From: a virus
IMG/VR virus record: IMGVR_UViG_3300047586_000121
Coordinates: 1 to 40,335 of that record
DNA length: 40,335 nt
Reading direction: 5' to 3' (one strand)
Shown: positions 1,933 to 27,697 of the stretch, in pieces
How the letters are laid out: every line of letters starts with the position of its first letter
Position numbering within the stretch: the first letter of the stretch is position 1
Notes under the pieces: generated by a model
Seen by the model: the letters and a program-made list of their open reading frames with translations, nothing else
Database searches by the model: none
What the model was told of the DNA's origin: nothing
Translations under genes and position numbers: made by a program

Positions 1933-3047
1933 AGTACCGCGGTCGAATCGGACGCGAGGTGTTGCCGAGTGGTAAAGCGGTCTTCCGGGCCCGTACGCTG
2001 GTCCGCGGAAAGGTGCGGAAGTACAGCCACAAGAACCGGGTGATGGTGGAGCAGTGGCTCGAGGAACGCGACCGCGAGCGCGCCGGCCTACCAGCTTCCG
2101 GCCGTACGCGTCACCACCAGATCCGCCAGGCGCTCGATGGCTACCTCGCCGAACTCAAGCGATACGGGCGGCCCAGCACAACGGTCGAGTACTACCGGAA
2201 CAAGTTCGGCCAACTCCGAGAGGGACTCGGCGAGGACGGCTTCGTCGACTGGCTTGGGCAGGTTGAGATTGACGCCTACATTACCGAACGCCTGGAGCAC
2301 GTCGGCGTGGGGACAGTACTCAAGGAACTGCGCGCCTTCGCCACCGTCACGAAGTGGCTCAAGCTCCGCAGAGATTGGGAGATCCCGCGCATGCTCGCGG
2401 AGTCGCACAAGCCGCGGCGGAAGCGGATCCCCACCGTGAAGGTCGCGGCCCAACTCTGGCAGCGGCTCGAGCCGCCGGCGAAAGCGGCGATGGGTCTGTG
2501 CCTGCTCGCGGGCTGGCGTGCACAGGAGGCGCGGCGAGCAACTGCGGCCTGGTGCGACTTCCGGGCCCGGGAACTGTATCTACCTGAAGAGGGCACGAAA
2601 GAGCACGAGCCGAATCGGACCGCGATGGTGGCCACGCTTGCCAGGGTACTCCCGCGCGCGGGGCGCTTGGTGCCGGTCACCGGTGGCCAACTCGCTGGTG
2701 CGTTCAAGCGCGCTTCAAAAGCGGTTGGCATTGAGCCAACGATTCAGGGACCCGGCATCTTCCGCCACTGCGCAGGCACGTGGCTTGCCGAGTTGGGGTA
2801 CGGCACCGACGACCGGCGACTCATCCTCTCCCACGCCCATGGCGACGTGACCGAGCGCTACACCCACTCACAGCTTGTCGGTCGAAAGCGCCAGATGCTC
2901 CGCAAACTCGAGGCGTACTTCCTGCGGGCTGTGGAAGCCACGCGCGGACACCGGAAACCAGGTACGAAACGGGTACGGTCGGCGTCCTCCAATGCACCGC
3001 AACGGGCACCCCGCCCTCGGGTGAGAGCCGGCGAGCCGATCAACTAA
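1929..3047 (+). CDS. int: Tyrosine-recombinase integrase
   Basis: 372 residues from GTG 1929 (GTGA overlap). The N-terminus resembles an arm-binding domain, residues 65-155 a SAM-like core-binding domain, and the C-terminal half the catalytic domain. Catalytic positions visible: R197 (AGWRAQEARRAT), K224 (EGTKEH), R279 (GIFRHCAGT), H302 (LSHAH) and nucleophile Y311 (RYTH). The histidine normally three residues before the second arginine (HxxR) is glycine 276 here, an unusual substitution. The last 40 residues are basic and overlap a candidate arm-site repeat in DNA. It should integrate the phage at attP just downstream, at a host attB that is not visible here. Confidence 0.95.
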   Translation: MKYRGRIGREVLPSGKAVFRARTLVRGKVRKYSHKNRVMVEQWLEERDRERAGLPASGRTRHHQIRQALDGYLAELKRYGRPSTTVEYYRNKFGQLREGLGEDGFVDWLGQVEIDAYITERLEHVGVGTVLKELRAFATVTKWLKLRRDWEIPRMLAESHKPRRKRIPTVKVAAQLWQRLEPPAKAAMGLCLLAGWRAQEARRATAAWCDFRARELYLPEEGTKEHEPNRTAMVATLARVLPRAGRLVPVTGGQLAGAFKRASKAVGIEPTIQGPGIFRHCAGTWLAELGYGTDDRRLILSHAHGDVTERYTHSQLVGRKRQMLRKLEAYFLRAVEATRGHRKPGTKRVRSASSNAPQRAPRPRVRAGEPIN

Positions 3048-3214
3048 GTCCTTTAGTTAACCGGCGTTAGGTTGGTTCCGGAGGCGAGAGCCGAAGCCAC
3101 ACACACGGGCGCGTGGGGGGTTCGATGTCCCCCATAAGGTTAAGGCGCTCAGCACTTTGTGGCCTTCGTTTCACGTGAAACGCCCCAGGCGACTCGGGTA
3201 CGGAACGGGTACGG
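2961..3214. other. Candidate attP region with paired 18-bp repeats
   Basis: GGTACGAAACGGGTACGG at 2961-2978 and its 17/18 match at 3197-3214 are direct repeats 236 bp apart, each containing two tandem GGTACG/GGGTACG units. They lie in and just after the 3' end of int, the expected place for arm-type integrase sites. Between them, 3115-3133 has GGGGG-GTTCGATGT-CCCCC, resembling a tRNA T-arm, so the core may match a host tRNA 3' end. The inverted repeat AACTAA...TTAGTT around the int stop codon is another possible core element. The assignment is by position and repeat structure only. Confidence 0.45.
3167..3182. promoter_or_regulatory. parS-like ParB-binding palindrome
   Basis: CGTTTCACGTGAAACG is a perfect 16-bp palindrome whose central 14 bases are identical to the core of the widely conserved bacterial parS site (TGTTTCACGTGAAACA). 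No parA or parB gene is present in the window, so a host ParB would have to act here. It sits between the candidate attP core and the right arm repeat. Confidence 0.6.
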
Positions 3215-3394
3215 GTGACGTGGACCGGCACCGCTCCAAATGGCCAGCGCGCGCGCCAGCGCGGCCCAGGGCAGACGATCGGCCTCACGGCGTAGGGTGA
3301 TCTCTATGCGTGCCCGTCCTGGGGCAAAATCTAGGCCCCCACCGGTACATTGCACCTATGCAACTCCCGTGCCATCAGGTCCGGGTTGCACCCC

Positions 3395-4472: not shown

Positions 4473-4769
4473 CTACCGAGGCTTCGCCGGCTGGGGCGCC
4501 ACCGCGTAGGCGGCGAGCAGCTCCTCGAGTTTCGCCGAGTACCCCTCCAGGAGCACCAGCGCGGTGAGTTGCTTCGCCATGCACTCCACCTCCGTGTCGG
4601 CCGGGAGACAACGCTCGACCGCGGGGCGCGGCGGGACCTTCGGCGGCGGGCACGGGACCGCGACCGGCAACAGGACCGGCTTGACCGGACAGCCTACGGC
4701 GGCGAGGATTGCCAACGCAGGCAGAACACGTTGTACTGCTCTCGCGCCCATTTCAAAACGTCTTCGCAT
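4473..4769 (-). CDS. Rz1-like outer-membrane spanin lipoprotein
   Basis: 98 residues; its first 76 bp overlap the 3' end of the inner-membrane spanin gene in another frame, the classical Rz/Rz1 arrangement. The N-terminus is basic and hydrophobic and leads to a lipobox-like AAVGC, followed by a proline-rich mature part (VAVPCPPPKVPPRP), both typical of o-spanins. The C-terminal half is helical. It would join the i-spanin across the periplasm to fuse membranes at lysis. The lipobox -3 residue is Ala rather than Leu, a mild deviation. Confidence 0.8.
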   Translation of the reverse strand: MRRRFEMGARAVQRVLPALAILAAVGCPVKPVLLPVAVPCPPPKVPPRPAVERCLPADTEVECMAKQLTALVLLEGYSAKLEELLAAYAVAPQPAKPR

Positions 4770-5143
4770 GGAACCGTCCCTCCCTCTACGGCCGGCGTCG
4801 GCGCCGGACCTGGCAACACCACGGCGGGCGGGCCCGCCACCACGGGCTGCAGCTTCGGCATGTAGTCACGCAGCGCCTTGATGCGCGCTGCCGTCTCCGC
4901 CTCGATGGCCGGGATGCGCGCCTCGGCCGCCGCGACCTTCTGGGCCATCCTGTCGCCCTCAGCCTTCCACTCGCGGACCTTGGCGTTCTGGAGCTCGACG
5001 AGCGCCTGCTGACTCGCGACGCGCACCTCGAGGCGGGCGATCTCTGCGGCGTCCCACTTGTGCATCCCGTAGGCGCCGAGCGAGAGCGCGATCGCGAACC
5101 CGACCGCCCCGGCTATCAGTTTCGCTTGCAGAGTAAATAGCAT
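4694..5143 (-). CDS. Rz-like inner-membrane spanin
   Basis: 149 residues from ATG 5143. One N-terminal transmembrane helix (LIAGAVGFAIALSLGAYG) is followed by a long periplasmic coiled coil (about residues 30-95) and a Pro-rich linker (PGPAPTPAVEGG), the layout of an i-spanin. The Rz1-like gene starts inside its 3' end. Together they imply a host with an outer membrane. Confidence 0.8.
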   Translation of the reverse strand: MLFTLQAKLIAGAVGFAIALSLGAYGMHKWDAAEIARLEVRVASQQALVELQNAKVREWKAEGDRMAQKVAAAEARIPAIEAETAARIKALRDYMPKLQPVVAGPPAVVLPGPAPTPAVEGGTVPCEDVLKWAREQYNVFCLRWQSSPP

Positions 5144-5155
5144 CCTATCCTCCGA

Positions 5156-5410
5156 TCATCCACCACCGGCTATCGGGGGTGCCGGCGTTGCCTTGACACT
5201 CTGCACCACGTTCGCGGTGAGGTAGGCGCCGACGACTCCGAGGACGATCGCGACGACCGACCCACCGTCGAGCCTGCTCCACGCGCACAGGTGGAACGTG
5301 CAGGAGAGCGCGAACAGTACGACGATGAACTTGCGGAACCCCGGCCGTACGTCGGCCGTCTTGAGCGCGTTCTCCACCTTCACGATCACGTCTGGAAGAT
5401 TCGTGGGCAT
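5156..5410 (-). CDS. Putative holin (two transmembrane segments)
   Basis: 84 residues. Two hydrophobic segments are visible (FRKFIVVLFALSCTFHLCAW and VVAIVLGVVGAYLTANVV) separated by a short polar loop, with a charged N-terminal tail. Size and topology fit small class II holins, and the gene lies directly upstream of the spanins. An overlapping ORF in another frame has no such pattern and was ignored. Holin function is inferred from topology and position. Confidence 0.65.
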   Translation of the reverse strand: MPTNLPDVIVKVENALKTADVRPGFRKFIVVLFALSCTFHLCAWSRLDGGSVVAIVLGVVGAYLTANVVQSVKATPAPPIAGGG

Positions 5411-5413
5411 ACT

Positions 5414-5527
5414 TCACTTCCCGAAAGTCCGGACCTTGTCGTACCAGGCCGGGTTGTTGCGGAGCGCGAGGGCCATGCCGGCCGCACCCACCACGAGGAA
5501 GACCACCGCCACGATGATGTACGCCAT
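5414..5527 (-). CDS. 37-residue single-span membrane protein
   Basis: ATG 5527 with GGTGAGGTG upstream; stop 5416-5414, 3 bp before the holin start. It has one N-terminal transmembrane helix (AYIIVAVVFLVVGAAGMALA) and a short basic tail. Its size and place beside the holin suggest an accessory holin or antiholin, which is inference. The stretch 5528-5622 shows no gene. Confidence 0.6.
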   Translation of the reverse strand: MAYIIVAVVFLVVGAAGMALALRNNPAWYDKVRTFGK

Positions 5528-5622
5528 TTCACACCTCACCTTTCAATACCTAGAAGATCCTCACCGCTGGCGCAGCACTTGGAACCGAGCCGCGCCAGGG
5601 CAAGGAGAATCAGTGCGCCGAC

Positions 5623-5991
5623 CTACCCGATCCTCGGGCCGGGCGTGTCCGGCGGCGGGGGAGGCGGCTCGACCGGAGGAATGACCGGCGGAGCGGCCGG
5701 GGGCGCGGCCAGCGTGTTCGCCGCAACCGCAGCGGCGAGCGCGGCCGTCTTCGCGTCCAGCGCGTCGATGACCGCCTGCAGCCGCGCCGAGTCGTTGGCT
5801 GCCACCGCATCCTTGAGTTGCTGCGAGAGGCCGGTGAGCAGCACAACCGCACTCTGCTCCACCGCTGTGACCTTCGCGACTTCCGCCTCGAGAGCGTCCA
5901 GAATGTTCGCCATGGCGTGAATCTCCTTTCGCAAGCTGTCCACTGCTAGGGTTAGGGCTTTGAGTTGCTTCGCCGTGTTCCAGGGCCACAT
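5623..5991 (-). CDS. Coiled-coil protein with polyproline tail, possible dual start
   Basis: 122 residues from ATG 5991 (AGGGAGGTGACC just upstream). A second in-frame ATG at 5913 also has a strong site (AAAGGAG, 9 nt away) and would give a 96-residue product starting MANILDALEAEV. The middle is a long alanine-rich coiled coil; the end is proline-rich (PPVIPPVEPPPPPPDTPG). It lies between the lysis genes and a secreted protein. Small phage proteins with a MANILDAL-type start are common, but I know no function. Confidence 0.65.
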   Translation of the reverse strand: MWPWNTAKQLKALTLAVDSLRKEIHAMANILDALEAEVAKVTAVEQSAVVLLTGLSQQLKDAVAANDSARLQAVIDALDAKTAALAAAVAANTLAAPPAAPPVIPPVEPPPPPPDTPGPRIG

Positions 5992-23515: not shown

Positions 23516-24457
23516 GTTGCCCTCCCTTTCGGCGCCGTCCTCGGCGCTCTCGTCCTCCTCGCTCGATGCGAGTAGGTTTGCACTTGCGGCAACGGCCTGG
23601 AGGCCGTGAATTGCTGGGCTGTTGGTGAGTCCCGCACCCAGGATCTCCGGGAGCACCTCGCCGGTGCTCCGGTCCCGCCGTATGACCGCGCTCATGTAGC
23701 GGTACTCGCGATCGCGGATCCGGCGCAAGCCCTCGGGGGTCCACTCCGGTTGCAGCCAGACGCCTGCCATCGATTCGGGCTTGGAGGCCAACGCAACCGC
23801 CTCCGGTCTGTCGATCTGGAGCGCCGTGATCCAGCCGGCCGCCGGCGCGTCGTGGAAGTCGGTGAGCGAGGCGTGGTTGTAGTCGATCGGCAGATCGACC
23901 TTGCGGTTGGCGAAGTTGCTTTCCATCTGGGCAGCGAATGCCTCGTCAATGACGATCGGAGGCCGGCCGTCCACCCGCACGTTGATACCCCAATGGAAAA
24001 GCTGCGCTGGCTTGATGGGTTGTCCCTCGATGGTCGGGCTTTGCAGTAGGTCGATAGCGGCGAAGGCGTAGCCGCGGTCCAGATCCTCAAACGTGACCGC
24101 AATGGACCGGACGGCGTTCGCACTCGTGCCGTCGATCTGGTCAAGCAACCGGGCCGCCGCTTCGGCGATTGACGTCGCCCCCTGCTGCGCAGCCCGGCTC
24201 TTGATCGCAATGACGGCGCGCCGGAAGACCTTGCCGCTCTTGCCGAACGGGTAGTTGTACCTGGCCTTCGTTTCCGGCTTCGCGCTATCGTCGGTGCCGA
24301 GGAACCATGAGGCAAACCCATCCCAATTCGGAGGGTCACCGAGCATCGCGTTCTCTTCGTCGGCGCTGATCGCCCACGCGGAGGACTTGTCCACTTTGCC
24401 CGAAGAGATGAGCGACTTCGCGTGCTTCTCTGAGGCTGTGTTCAATTTGACGCTCAC
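23024..24457 (-). CDS. Mu gpI-like head maturation protease with C-terminal scaffold
   Basis: 477 residues. Residues 1-105 form an N-terminal domain seen with such proteases (YNYPFGKSGKVFRRAVIAIK, AQQGATSIAEAAARLLDQID). Residues about 145-310 match the Mu-like protease: VDLPIDYNHASL with the likely catalytic histidine, AAGWITALQI, REYRYMSAVI, LGAGLTNSPAIHGLQ with the likely serine. The remainder is a coiled-coil scaffold. It would self-assemble inside the procapsid and cleave head proteins. Confidence 0.88.
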   Translation of the reverse strand: MSVKLNTASEKHAKSLISSGKVDKSSAWAISADEENAMLGDPPNWDGFASWFLGTDDSAKPETKARYNYPFGKSGKVFRRAVIAIKSRAAQQGATSIAEAAARLLDQIDGTSANAVRSIAVTFEDLDRGYAFAAIDLLQSPTIEGQPIKPAQLFHWGINVRVDGRPPIVIDEAFAAQMESNFANRKVDLPIDYNHASLTDFHDAPAAGWITALQIDRPEAVALASKPESMAGVWLQPEWTPEGLRRIRDREYRYMSAVIRRDRSTGEVLPEILGAGLTNSPAIHGLQAVAASANLLASSEEDESAEDGAEREGNMDVLKELGYASVEEVKTALSELTGLREKAAKAEPLSAQLAEANKRVETAEASLKAFKVESAMFRAEALGRIPFESEKLTAEQKQARAFARQLAETSEPLFKEWLASAPPTPLAPAGRLALSLSPADEDDREAVVKKVTAYAQEHKCSLGEAYEALGAAAAKSN

Positions 24458-26019
24458 GCTGCCCTCCCTTCATCAGGCGGTGCGAGGCGCGGGTTCACAG
24501 ACAAACCGGCCTGCAGGATCTGGTCGAGCAGGCCCTGTTGGACTTCCGCAGTGAGGCCATTGACAGAAGGCGGCGCGTCGAATCCCGGGGCGATGTGGTC
24601 CAGGGGTGGCGGCCCCTCGTGCATCGTGGCGCCGAGCTTGTCGAGCTCGTCAGCGTCCGCGGGGATCACGGTGCAACGGCAGTTGCTACAAACGAGTCCG
24701 GCAGCTATAATGAGGCCGGTCGTAGATTGGAGATCGTAGACATGGCCGGACCAATCAACCTCGCAAACATCAATGACCTCATCGAGCGCCACAAGAGCGG
24801 GGTATCGCTCAAGCAACTCTCGGAAGAGACCGGCGTCAGCCGTGACTCCCTCCGCCGCCAGTTCCTGAAGTGCGGCGTCCAGCCTCGCGGTCGCTCCGAC
24901 GCGGCGGTATGGAGGGGTCGACGTGACCCCGGCCATGTTGCCCGACGCCTCGCCGCTATGTGGGCCGCCCGCCGGGGTTCCAGGTGTTCCGATTCGGTCA
25001 AGGCGAACGTCACCCGGGGACGTGCTAGAAACATCACTCACGTTGGACGGTTCGAGCCGGAGGTGCTTGCAATCGCCTCCGACTTTGCCAGCGACGCGGT
25101 CCCTCAGCACCCCCTCGGATCCCGCAATATCGACGTGGCCATTCCCTCGCTCCGCATCGCCGTGGAAATCACCACTCACGATGTCAGCGGTGCGCATGCC
25201 AAAGATCTCAACGAGCGCGCCGAAGACTTCGTCAATGCGGGCTGGCTCATGCTGATCGTCGCGTGTTTCAGGCGTCGGCCTCGGACCTTTGGCGGCCCTC
25301 ACTTTTTCAGCGCCGACGCAGTGCGCGAGCACCTTGCTACCCTTGTTGAGTTCGCACGCGGCGACGAAACCCGAGGGGGTGGCTATCGGGTGATTCGGGG
25401 TGACGGCGAGGTGATTTCCCCTCGCAGTCTCAAGCTCGATCACCTTCCCCGCGTATAGCATCCGCGTTCCAGCGACGAACGATCCGGACACTGCGGTTTC
25501 GGGCCGGAACGAGTTGTAGTGAATCGGGGTCCACAACTCCGGCGGGAACTCATCGCGCGGCCACGTCTGCCCGTCGAGCGCGAGACACTCCTCGTCAACG
25601 CGGTCATCGTCAATCGCGTCCCACACCAGGAATTCAACGTTCGGGTTGCCGGCGAGCAGATCGTACCGCTCGCCCTCCATGACCGTCCCGAGCGTGGTGT
25701 TGAAAATCGTCTTCTCATGCCCGGCGCCCAGAGGTGAGCGCCACCCGAGGTCATCGAGCATCGAGAGCCAGTCACGGAGAGTGCCGCCCTCCTGCATGAT
25801 CGTGACCAAGGACTCGCGCAGGCTTTCCAGGACCGAGAGGTCGGTGACGCTGGCCACGCTCCACGCCAGATCCCACACCCCATCACCGAGTTCGCCAGCG
25901 ATCCGCGCTATTTCGTCCGCCGGTAGGGCGAGTTTGTCGGCGAGGATCTTGACCATCGCATCGGGCGACACAGGCGTCCACACCGGCAGGAATGGCGGGG
26001 TCGAGGGGGCGTTAGGCAC
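24454..26019 (-). CDS. MuF-type head morphogenesis protein containing an intein
   Basis: 521 residues from GTG 26019, overlapping the portal stop. Residues 1-169 and 447-521 together form a MuF (SPP1 gp7-like) minor head protein; joined, the junction reads ELWTPIHYN-CRCTVIPADAD, the usual MuF CRC motif. Residues about 170-446 are an intein: SFVAGTRMLYAGKVIELE (block A), HLAVTPNHPIATPSGFVA (block B with TxxH), and GHVYDLQSTTGLIIAAG then LVCSN (blocks F/G) before Cys+1. The C-terminal Asn446 and Cys447 are intact. The first residue is Ser rather than Cys, and the penultimate His is Ser. The centre is antisense to a nuclease gene. MuF proteins join portal and procapsid. Confidence 0.88.
   Translation of the reverse strand: MPNAPSTPPFLPVWTPVSPDAMVKILADKLALPADEIARIAGELGDGVWDLAWSVASVTDLSVLESLRESLVTIMQEGGTLRDWLSMLDDLGWRSPLGAGHEKTIFNTTLGTVMEGERYDLLAGNPNVEFLVWDAIDDDRVDEECLALDGQTWPRDEFPPELWTPIHYNSFRPETAVSGSFVAGTRMLYAGKVIELETARGNHLAVTPNHPIATPSGFVAACELNKGSKVLAHCVGAEKVRAAKGPRPTPETRDDQHEPARIDEVFGALVEIFGMRTADIVSGDFHGDAERGNGHVDIAGSEGVLRDRVAGKVGGDCKHLRLEPSNVSDVSSTSPGDVRLDRIGTPGTPAGGPHSGEASGNMAGVTSTPPYRRVGATARLDAALQELAAEGVTADAGLFRELLERYPALVALDEVIDVCEVDWSGHVYDLQSTTGLIIAAGLVCSNCRCTVIPADADELDKLGATMHEGPPPLDHIAPGFDAPPSVNGLTAEVQQGLLDQILQAGLSVNPRLAPPDEGRAA
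24683..24711 (+). promoter_or_regulatory. Promoter of the antisense endonuclease gene
   Basis: TTGCTA (24683-24688), 17-bp spacer, perfect TATAAT (24706-24711). The same bases, read leftward, encode the intein C-terminal block (Ile-Ile codons produce TATAAT; Val-Cys-Ser-Asn codons cover the -35). Confidence 0.75.
24742..25458 (+). CDS. Probable homing endonuclease (HTH + PD-(D/E)XK/Vsr-like) antisense within the intein
   Basis: 238 residues from ATG 24742, GGAG 9 nt upstream, promoter at 24683. This is the only rightward gene between 4.4 and 40 kb. Residues 8-42 are a helix-turn-helix (VSLKQLSEETGVSRDSLRRQ). Residues about 105-175 have a PD-(D/E)XK/Vsr-like core: HPLGSRNIDVAIP (D131), LRIAVEITTHD (E142), then AEDFVNAGWLMLIV. 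The end GYRVIRGDGEVI also looks family-typical. It spans exactly the stretch between intein blocks B and F and shares codon boundaries with the MuF frame. It likely cuts intein-less MuF genes to spread the intein. Confidence 0.8.
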   Translation: MAGPINLANINDLIERHKSGVSLKQLSEETGVSRDSLRRQFLKCGVQPRGRSDAAVWRGRRDPGHVARRLAAMWAARRGSRCSDSVKANVTRGRARNITHVGRFEPEVLAIASDFASDAVPQHPLGSRNIDVAIPSLRIAVEITTHDVSGAHAKDLNERAEDFVNAGWLMLIVACFRRRPRTFGGPHFFSADAVREHLATLVEFARGDETRGGGYRVIRGDGEVISPRSLKLDHLPRV

Positions 26020-27697
26020 TCTGAGCCGCCTTACGCTTGCGGGCCCGCTCTGCCTGTGCCATGCCGAGCAGCCGGCCGTTGAGACGCGCTGCGAGGATCG
26101 CCTTCTGCAGCACGAGGGCGGCCGGTTTGATGTTCTCGGCGGTCAAAGCCTCCTGGAGTGCGCGGTCCACCTCGGTCAGCGTCATGCCGTCGTGTAGCCG
26201 CGCCTTGAGGCCGGCCATCAGGCCGCCGTCGAGCGCCTCACGGAGGGGCCCTGAGGACGCGGCCGCGATGCCATCGAGCGCCTTGTGCATCGTCCCGACG
26301 CCAGCGCGGTACTCCTCCACGTCTCCCGGGGTGCGCGTGAAGACGCTGCGGATTGCCCGCAGGAGGCGCGCAGCAAGGCCGGTAGGCGGTTGAGTATCTG
26401 CGGCGCCCTGCGCGCCGTCACCGGCCGCCGCAGCGCCGTCCTGACCTACCTGGCCAGCCGCCTTGGCCTTGGTTTGCGCCTCAAGGAGCGCGATCTGCTG
26501 TTCGGTCTTAGCGGCGTCGGCCGCGAGTTGATCGTCGCTCGGCGCTTCGAGGCCCAGCTCCTCACGTACCGCCTCGTGGTCGAATTCAATCCCTGCCTTA
26601 AAAGCGGTAAGCACAATCTCCGCACGGTGGAGTGGAGTTGTCTCGCGCTCCCACGAAAAAACGGTGTGCATCACCTTCTTACCGCCGGCGTGAATCTTTT
26701 CGACCTTGCTGACAACCTGGGAGTCGATGGCGTCGGCGATCACCCGGGCATCCGCCTCGACGAGCGAGTCAAACGTGCGCTCGCGGACTTCATCGGACGC
26801 CCTCGCCCCGCCGGTGCCCTTGGTCACGGTGCTCTGCTGCCCGATGATCGATTGGGTCATGCCCGCATTGCAGCGATCCCACAAGGTGTCAAAGTTGGCG
26901 GTCGCGGCACCGCGCGGGTCGCTCATCAGGTCGATCGTCACGTTGTTCGCGTGGACGATCAGACCGTGTGCGCGCATATCCTCGAGCGCGTCGAGGAGGG
27001 TCTGTTGAGGGGTCTTCGCGCCCTCAGGCGGTGGCGGTGCATTGGGATCGTAGGAAGCTTTGAGGATCGGGTCGCCGAAGCGTTCAAGGTACTTGCGCCA
27101 GTCCCGCGCGAGATACGCCTTGGTGATCCACAGGCCGACACAGCGGCGCAGGCGCGCCGCGCCGGAGGGATCATGCTCGCTCGCGCGGATCGCGAGGACC
27201 CTGTCAGCGATCTCCGGGTCATCGGTCGTGAGCCACTTCCCGGTGGCGAGGGCGACGTAAATCGTGCCCAGCATCGCGTAGCCTGCGGCATAAGGAAGCT
27301 CATGCAGGGCGATGACGCTCCAGTCAGGCGCCCACTCGATCTCAAGGTTGGCGTAGCCGAAGAGGCGGAACATCGCAGCGTGTTCGAGGGCAAGTTGGTT
27401 GAATGCCGTGTCAGGTAGTTTGTCCTGGACGCGCTTCACGTCGGCGTCACTGGCGTTGTCAACCGGCTCAAAGCGCCATCGGGCACCAGCGAGCGCGAGG
27501 CAGCGCTGGTCAACCGCGTTGCCGAGGTCCGTGTCGCGCGCGATCATGGTCTCGAAGAGCCGGCGCTGCCCGTCCGAGCTGGAGGACCCGGCTATGACGC
27601 GACCGAGAACGACCTCAGGCGTGAGACCCGTATCATAGGCTTTGAGTTTTTGCCACGGAGAGATAAGCGCGCCGAGGCGGTCAGTCGACGCGCCCAT
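26012..27697 (-). CDS. Portal protein (DUF935, Mu gp29-like)
   Basis: 561 residues. DUF935 pattern: an opening with a stem helix (RLFETMIARDTDLGNAVDQR), CLALAGARWRFEPV, RLFGYANLEIEW, DWRKYLERFGDPILKASYD, and a long helical C-terminal end. The Mu-like order terminase-portal-MuF-protease is kept. It forms the portal ring for DNA entry. Confidence 0.88.
   Translation of the reverse strand: MGASTDRLGALISPWQKLKAYDTGLTPEVVLGRVIAGSSSSDGQRRLFETMIARDTDLGNAVDQRCLALAGARWRFEPVDNASDADVKRVQDKLPDTAFNQLALEHAAMFRLFGYANLEIEWAPDWSVIALHELPYAAGYAMLGTIYVALATGKWLTTDDPEIADRVLAIRASEHDPSGAARLRRCVGLWITKAYLARDWRKYLERFGDPILKASYDPNAPPPPEGAKTPQQTLLDALEDMRAHGLIVHANNVTIDLMSDPRGAATANFDTLWDRCNAGMTQSIIGQQSTVTKGTGGARASDEVRERTFDSLVEADARVIADAIDSQVVSKVEKIHAGGKKVMHTVFSWERETTPLHRAEIVLTAFKAGIEFDHEAVREELGLEAPSDDQLAADAAKTEQQIALLEAQTKAKAAGQVGQDGAAAAGDGAQGAADTQPPTGLAARLLRAIRSVFTRTPGDVEEYRAGVGTMHKALDGIAAASSGPLREALDGGLMAGLKARLHDGMTLTEVDRALQEALTAENIKPAALVLQKAILAARLNGRLLGMAQAERARKRKAAQSA

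Follow-up and report, generated by a model that had tools for sequence, protein, structure and literature searches.

The window analysed here is a stretch of 40,335 nucleotides of viral DNA (IMG/VR record IMGVR_UViG_3300047586_000121), in which the terminase, portal, MuF and further head genes all run leftward, with the portal and terminase ORFs located upstream of MuF. The MuF gene (24454–26019, minus strand) encodes a MuF/SPP1 gp7-like minor capsid (head morphogenesis) protein, as recognized from the ORF itself, a match to Pfam Phage_Mu_F (E 2e-4) and similarity to PHROG head proteins. We found that its N-extein (25513–26019) and C-extein (24454–24681), both on the minus strand, flank an unsplit intein of 277 aa (24682–25512, minus strand), which extends from Ser1 to Asn277, is followed by a +1 Cys and is delimited by its boundary pattern, Pfam matches and the existence of empty alleles. 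The flanking residues are ...IHYN on the N-extein side and CRC on the C-extein side, and the boundary pattern, mostly N/C...N/CRC (slashes mark the junctions), is common to 56 homologues. These limits agree with those of an earlier note on this DNA, made from the sequence alone, which had recognized a leftward MuF gene with intein blocks A/B and F/G.

Block B (VTPNHPIATP; 25375–25404, minus strand) contains T38, N40 and H41, which are invariant in alignment A8, while blocks F/G (GHVYDLQSTTGLIIAAGLVCSN; 24682–24747, minus strand) double on the reverse strand as a putative promoter, ribosome site and start codon. The window thus holds the residues typical of splicing blocks, i.e., Ser1, TPNH at 38–41, Asn277 and the +1 Cys. 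The Pfam Intein_splicing family (PF14890) is matched by 44 of the 47 sense proteins and Phage_Mu_F by 32; the Intein_splicing match of the window's own MuF protein is weak (E 0.034). The penultimate residue of block G is Ser in the window (CSN) and His in many relatives. A penultimate His is common in block G, yet not universal, and known inteins can lack it. Since Ser rather than His precedes Asn277, splicing of the window intein may be atypical.

In the AlphaFold2 model of the sense reading, the splicing halves (residues 1–65 and 241–277) are confident and rich in beta-structure, and residues 139–224 (24841–25098, minus strand) form a predicted disordered linker with pLDDT below 50, around 30–39 across most of it, which shows antisense-type substitutions in relatives. 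Much of the sense middle of the intein is, according to this model, a linker. Profile searches with the window and the 47 sense proteins gave no nuclease family match on the sense strand, where the earlier note had recognized no nuclease either. A conserved DFHGDG segment (intein residues ~93–131; 25120–25238, minus strand) is predicted with fair confidence though it lies opposite the nuclease core described below; it could represent either a small element encoded by the sense strand or a mere reflection of the nuclease.

On the opposite strand we detected a homing-endonuclease-like gene of 238 codons plus TAG (24742–25458, plus strand), assigned from its ORF, homologues and predicted fold. 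It is codon-aligned with MuF: its codons pair exactly with the MuF codons over the whole of 24742–25458, as had been noticed before. The ORF starts at the codon of block F His257, where CAT reads backwards as ATG. The previously proposed span, precisely from block B to block F, holds for one end only: the ORF begins exactly at block F, whereas its other end passes through block B and stops just downstream of block A. Given the intein residues and the local codon use, an open antisense frame in the window alone has a chance of P ~0.027; this locus by itself would therefore not settle the question, and the proof is carried by the family.

A tblastn search with the 238 residues retrieved 53 phage records, the inspected matches being antisense to MuF or head-morphogenesis genes, and full-length homologues antisense to MuF are encoded by Gordonia, Cronobacter, Pseudomonas, Vibrio, Salmonella and Pantoea phages. 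Scans of viral contigs pooled 127 relatives (80 kept) and 35 more; a scan with the window's antisense product (P0001) as a single protein found nothing and alignment A1 was too diverse for scanning, but narrower alignments worked. In all 130 homologous loci, which represent 93 distinct cores and range from 38% to 71% GC, both the nuclease frame and the codon-aligned MuF frame, the latter through the intein, are open, while the remaining four frames hold stops. For the locus of lowest GC, as many as 16 to 27 stops would be expected, given the protein of the other strand and the local codon use. The profile match crosses a stop in a dozen loci, at its extreme N-terminal edge and upstream of the likely start. 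Because 130 of 130 loci keep both frames open and the other four frames hold stops, chance openness of the antisense frame is excluded across the relatives.

As these loci had been chosen by their open antisense frame, we also sampled from the sense side, searching with 34 residues of the C-terminal end of the intein. This yielded 80 loci, of which four are cut by contig ends, and the antisense nuclease is intact in 76 of the 76 that can be scored, with no decayed nuclease copy among them; inteins of the GHVYNL type are over-represented in this sample. Homologous inteins with an antisense frame routinely broken by stops, which the earlier note had named as the outcome that would speak against its reading, were thus not encountered. 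Most annotated records that we examined do not list the nuclease as a gene. In the record of phage Snoke the intein is annotated and the antisense gene is absent from the listing; hypothetical genes without a name, antisense to MuF and matching the nuclease, are found in a few Salmonella phage records, and the record of Salmonella phage PK2 (L004) lists unnamed antisense ORFs at 2414–3223 and 2700–3101 (plus strand), which correspond to it.

The antisense product is, on the basis of alignment and predicted fold, a protein composed of a helix-turn-helix (HTH) and a Vsr/EDxHD-type nuclease domain. The HTH (residues 10–43; 24769–24870, plus strand) is supported by profile matches and by structural matches to HTH proteins 4go1 and 8b4h, and probably binds DNA. 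Some relatives have a longer N-terminus with additional repeats of the HTH unit. The distance from block B to block F in loci L151–L230 falls into classes near 200, 250 and 300 residues, probably depending on whether the nuclease N-terminus comprises one, two or three HTH units. The Vsr/DUF559/EDxHD-type domain (residues 99–233; 25036–25440, plus strand), recognized by profile and fold, has E105, Q122, N129, D131, A140 and E142 as invariant residues, the acidic active-site residues E105, D131 and E142 being invariant in 32 members. A His follows E142 in many members, though not in all, and since no catalytic His is invariant, nuclease activity is not certain.

The earlier note had read an HTH and a PD-(D/E)XK/Vsr-like core on the plus strand and had named a lack of nuclease-family similarity there as evidence against its reading; profile searches do reveal such similarity. 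REase_MTES_1575 is matched by 28 of the 32 family members, DUF559 by 8 of 32 and HTH families by many, and the family profile matches the solved endonuclease-like protein 3hrl (E 2e-6), I-Bth0305I (3r3p, E 7e-5) and, weakly, Vsr (1cw0). With the window product alone, searches of Pfam, PHROG and NCBIfam gave at most weak HTH matches, so the class assignment rests on the alignment and the fold; a DUF5588 match of this product was taken as noise. The AlphaFold2 model of the nuclease frame reaches a mean pLDDT of 90.8. Foldseek alone found no significant PDB match for this model; against a viral library it returned mismatch endonucleases and DUF559 proteins, and after VIA re-alignment the best structural matches were Vsr 1cw0 (Z 9.8), 3hrl (9.2), 1vsr (9.1) and I-Bth0305I 3r3p (8.8).

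Start signals for the nuclease seem to be written in the codons of the intein. A sigma70-like promoter, TTGCTA-17-TATAAT (24683–24711, plus strand; 10 of 12 positions matching, 1 found versus 0.1 expected), lies inside the intein as the only promoter-like site in the kilobase scanned. It is followed by a Shine-Dalgarno sequence GGAG (24729–24732, plus strand), 9 nt before the ATG, which is supported by its sequence and by a family-wide codon bias; the predicted start region is located entirely inside the intein. Across 121 loci, the nuclease start codon opposite the block F His is ATG in 101 and GTG in 20, the ribosome site GGAG/GAGG is positioned opposite [DN]-L-[QE] codons, and an exact TATAAT opposite block G occurs in 41 loci (28 at -51, most others at -32 to -36). 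We compared these counts with a null in which the intein residues are fixed and the codons of the 121 loci are resampled from local usage. Under such synonymous resampling, TATAAT is expected 4.0 times (sd 1.8) against the 41 observed, the extended -10 element TGnTATAAT 0.6 times against 22, ribosome sites 26.7 times against 79, and ATG rather than GTG 52.9 times against 101. The N-extein control gave 1 observed versus 1.3 expected. As the loci are related, their counts are not fully independent, but clustering at 75% identity (103 clusters) left the start-signal result unchanged. By this codon statistic, the C-terminal codons of the intein are chosen to spell a promoter, a ribosome site and a start codon, and the nuclease would be expressed from these embedded signals. 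In phage STP-1 (L246) a stop interrupts the antisense frame a few codons ahead of the conserved start Met (VINM), which is consistent with translation from this Met rather than from farther upstream.

The register, in which the third codon positions of the nuclease are the first positions of the intein, allows the selection on the two strands to be told apart. Counted over ten independent close pairs, the substitutions at positions 1/2/3 of the nuclease codons number 233/103/425 (P 3e-14), all pairs pointing in the same direction, while the exteins of the same genes show a normal sense pattern, the reverse of that in the overlap. As judged by these substitutions, the nuclease frame is under purifying selection in every independent close pair. 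Along the intein the pattern is of sense type at residues ~1–60, antisense at ~60–220 and sense again from ~240 to the end; the first and last stretches of the nuclease, opposite the splicing blocks, are shaped mainly by selection on the intein. For the DFHGDG segment, which faces the nuclease core, two lineages show a mixed pattern and two an antisense one, and both proteins may therefore be important in this region.

A full-length free-standing homologue of the nuclease was found in a Thermoleophilia MAG (L132; 4001–4696, plus strand). It is convergent with an intein-less MuF gene (4680–5726, minus strand; empty site HPQ/CRC) and overlaps the 3' end of the latter, and the frame opposite this nuclease contains two stops. 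The protein shares 30% identity with the window's product (E 3e-19) and up to 39% with other phage antisense frames (best E 2e-29). As a sequence that exists outside of any intein, L132 is independent proof that the predicted antisense product is a protein. In the tree it is placed within the intein-borne copies (support 0.84 and 0.91), which suggests that it is an escapee from an intein rather than the ancestor of the family, an origin that we do not favour for the same reason. Searches with the L132 protein revealed no other free-standing full-length copy in viral contigs and only the same copy in ~1,200 genomes drawn from two phyla and one class; weak genome matches of 36–40 bits were taken as ordinary DUF559-type relatives and not as family members.

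Alignment of MuF genes with and without the insert revealed ten Jersey-type alleles (L138–L147) that are empty at exactly the homologous site, AHPN/CRS, while near relatives carry the insert. Several phage pairs share 95–100% identity in the intein while their N-exteins share 67–70%: for jersey UPWr_S1 and dunkel the identity is 100% across the 816 nt of the intein versus 70.4% in the N-exteins, and for PK2 and LSPA1 it is 96.4% versus 69.3%. The presence/absence and the horizontal spread of the intein are therefore apparent from sequence comparison. The C-exteins of LSPA1 (L137) and dunkel (L245) are ~85–93% identical to Jersey-type alleles (L004, L150 and the empty L138–L147) and their N-exteins only ~70%, as if gene conversion had carried the intein and the C-extein together. 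In L110, inteins occupy two sites of one MuF gene, and each of them has an antisense nuclease of its own. A similar organization was observed in L112, whose MuF gene (minus strand) has two inteins at different sites, each with an antisense nuclease of the same family.

Taken together, it is very likely that the phage capsid gene in the window harbors a mobile intein whose homing endonuclease is encoded by the complementary strand. Translation of the MuF strand would give a single precursor, from which the splicing halves (~1–65 and 241–277) would excise the intein, and the central sense segment would mostly need only to stay stop-free. The promoter and ribosome site in the codons of blocks G and F would drive translation from the ATG opposite the block F His, so that a separate gene on the other strand would yield the HTH and Vsr/EDxHD-type nuclease. 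This enzyme would cut intein-less MuF at the insertion site, the cut site being assumed to equal the empty MuF site, and repair would copy the intein in. The sequences show the two genes, the selection on the nuclease frame, its fold class, the start signals in the codons, and the presence/absence and horizontal spread of the intein, whereas splicing, transcription, cleavage and target are inferred, homing cleavage from the nuclease family and its distribution.

Were only the intein real, high G+C content and the codon-aligned phase could keep the antisense frame open and make it seem conserved. Such an account would fit the chance calculated for the window alone (P ~0.027), the fact that codon-aligned antisense frames share second positions and the location of the nuclease YRVIRG motif opposite block B, where selection is mostly of sense type. 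It is nevertheless extremely improbable: the reversed codon-position substitution pattern and the free-standing L132 are both counted as refuting it, the frame stays open at 38–45% GC with up to 27 stops expected, the antisense frame gives a confident nuclease fold where the sense frame gives disorder, and the start signals are encoded in the choice of codons. It is very improbable that the nuclease was inactivated recently and that its frame persists as a relic because the intein opposite keeps it open. The catalytic His is not invariant, as a relic would allow, but a relic should display sense-dominated or neutral patterns and scattered antisense stops. The latter are absent from the 76 sense-first loci, and all independent close pairs show the nuclease frame to be under purifying selection.

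The antisense protein might also be real and now serve another purpose, such as MuF regulation or the restriction of intein-less co-infecting phages, homing then being of minor importance or no longer taking place. A promoter that reads antisense within a late gene could influence the transcription of MuF, and phage homing endonucleases can act as competition weapons, a role that would suit this explanation. We consider it improbable, as horizontal spread and presence/absence at a fixed site are what homing predicts, and regulation by RNA would not need a conserved nuclease core.

The mobile intein with an opposite-strand endonuclease quite probably represents a class, in which one segment comprises an unsplit intein and, on the other strand, an endonuclease gene that forms a transcription unit of its own, with signals in the C-terminal splicing codons, and which is widely distributed among the MuF inteins of numerous phage lineages and also found at a second insertion site. 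It is a naturally occurring and widespread example of DNA in which either strand encodes a full-length protein and selection can be followed at each codon, and makes the reality of long antisense protein overlaps directly testable in laboratory phages. It also illustrates a way for an intein to uncouple splicing and mobility, as neither domain need fit the other. Since the nuclease is apparently made from its own promoter, it could be produced when MuF is silent, e.g., in a prophage. Our literature search found no antisense nuclease inside an intein; a preprint on actinobacteriophage inteins of non-canonical architecture (10.1101/2025.01.02.630785, "Actinobacteriophage Inteins ... Non-Canonical Architecture", cited in PMC11855218) was outside its reach, and prior notice there is possible.

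Canonical mobile inteins with in-frame LAGLIDADG or HNH domains resemble the present one in that blocks A/B and F/G enclose a middle coding for a nuclease, that a single site of an essential gene is occupied and that alleles differ in presence/absence of the intein. Their nuclease, however, is in frame and on the same strand, whereas here it is a separate protein of the Vsr/EDxHD class encoded opposite a sense middle that is largely linker. The "fractured genes" with split inteins, reportedly described by Dassa et al. in 2009, are said to bear a Vsr-like homing endonuclease between the halves. They share with our system a Vsr-related, separately made nuclease associated with phage inteins, yet it lies between two gene halves, while here the intein is unsplit and the nuclease gene overlaps it in antisense. 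I-Bth0305I (PDB 3r3p), an EDxHD phage homing enzyme, is alike by profile (E 7e-5) and fold (Z 8.8), but is encoded in a phage group I intron, in contrast to an antisense gene in an intein whose product probably binds DNA by an N-terminal HTH.

Antisense homing endonuclease genes are found in nuclear group I introns, as for I-DsqI and Dir.S956-2, and are likewise transcribed from the strand opposite the host gene (PMC9548176). Their intron RNA is not translated with the host (PMC9548176), whereas here the opposite strand must encode the intein as well and the bases are read twice. A group I intron with an antisense endonuclease was rejected for the window itself, where Rfam gave no match at E up to 1 within positions 24000–26200 and the frame is open through the insert. 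The ShiLan domain, a hidden out-of-frame HNH in a phage methylase for which its authors found no ribosome site, is similar in being a phage insertion that leaves the host frame open and encodes a nuclease in a different one (PMC11855218). It uses the same strand and the HNH class and has no splicing domain (PMC11855218), where our system uses the opposite strand and has one. Nuclease-bearing inteins, Vsr-like enzymes beside split inteins, antisense homing genes in group I introns and same-strand hidden HNH domains are already known, and what appears to be new is the predicted genetic architecture, an unsplit intein overlapped in antisense by its own endonuclease with the start signals in intein codons.
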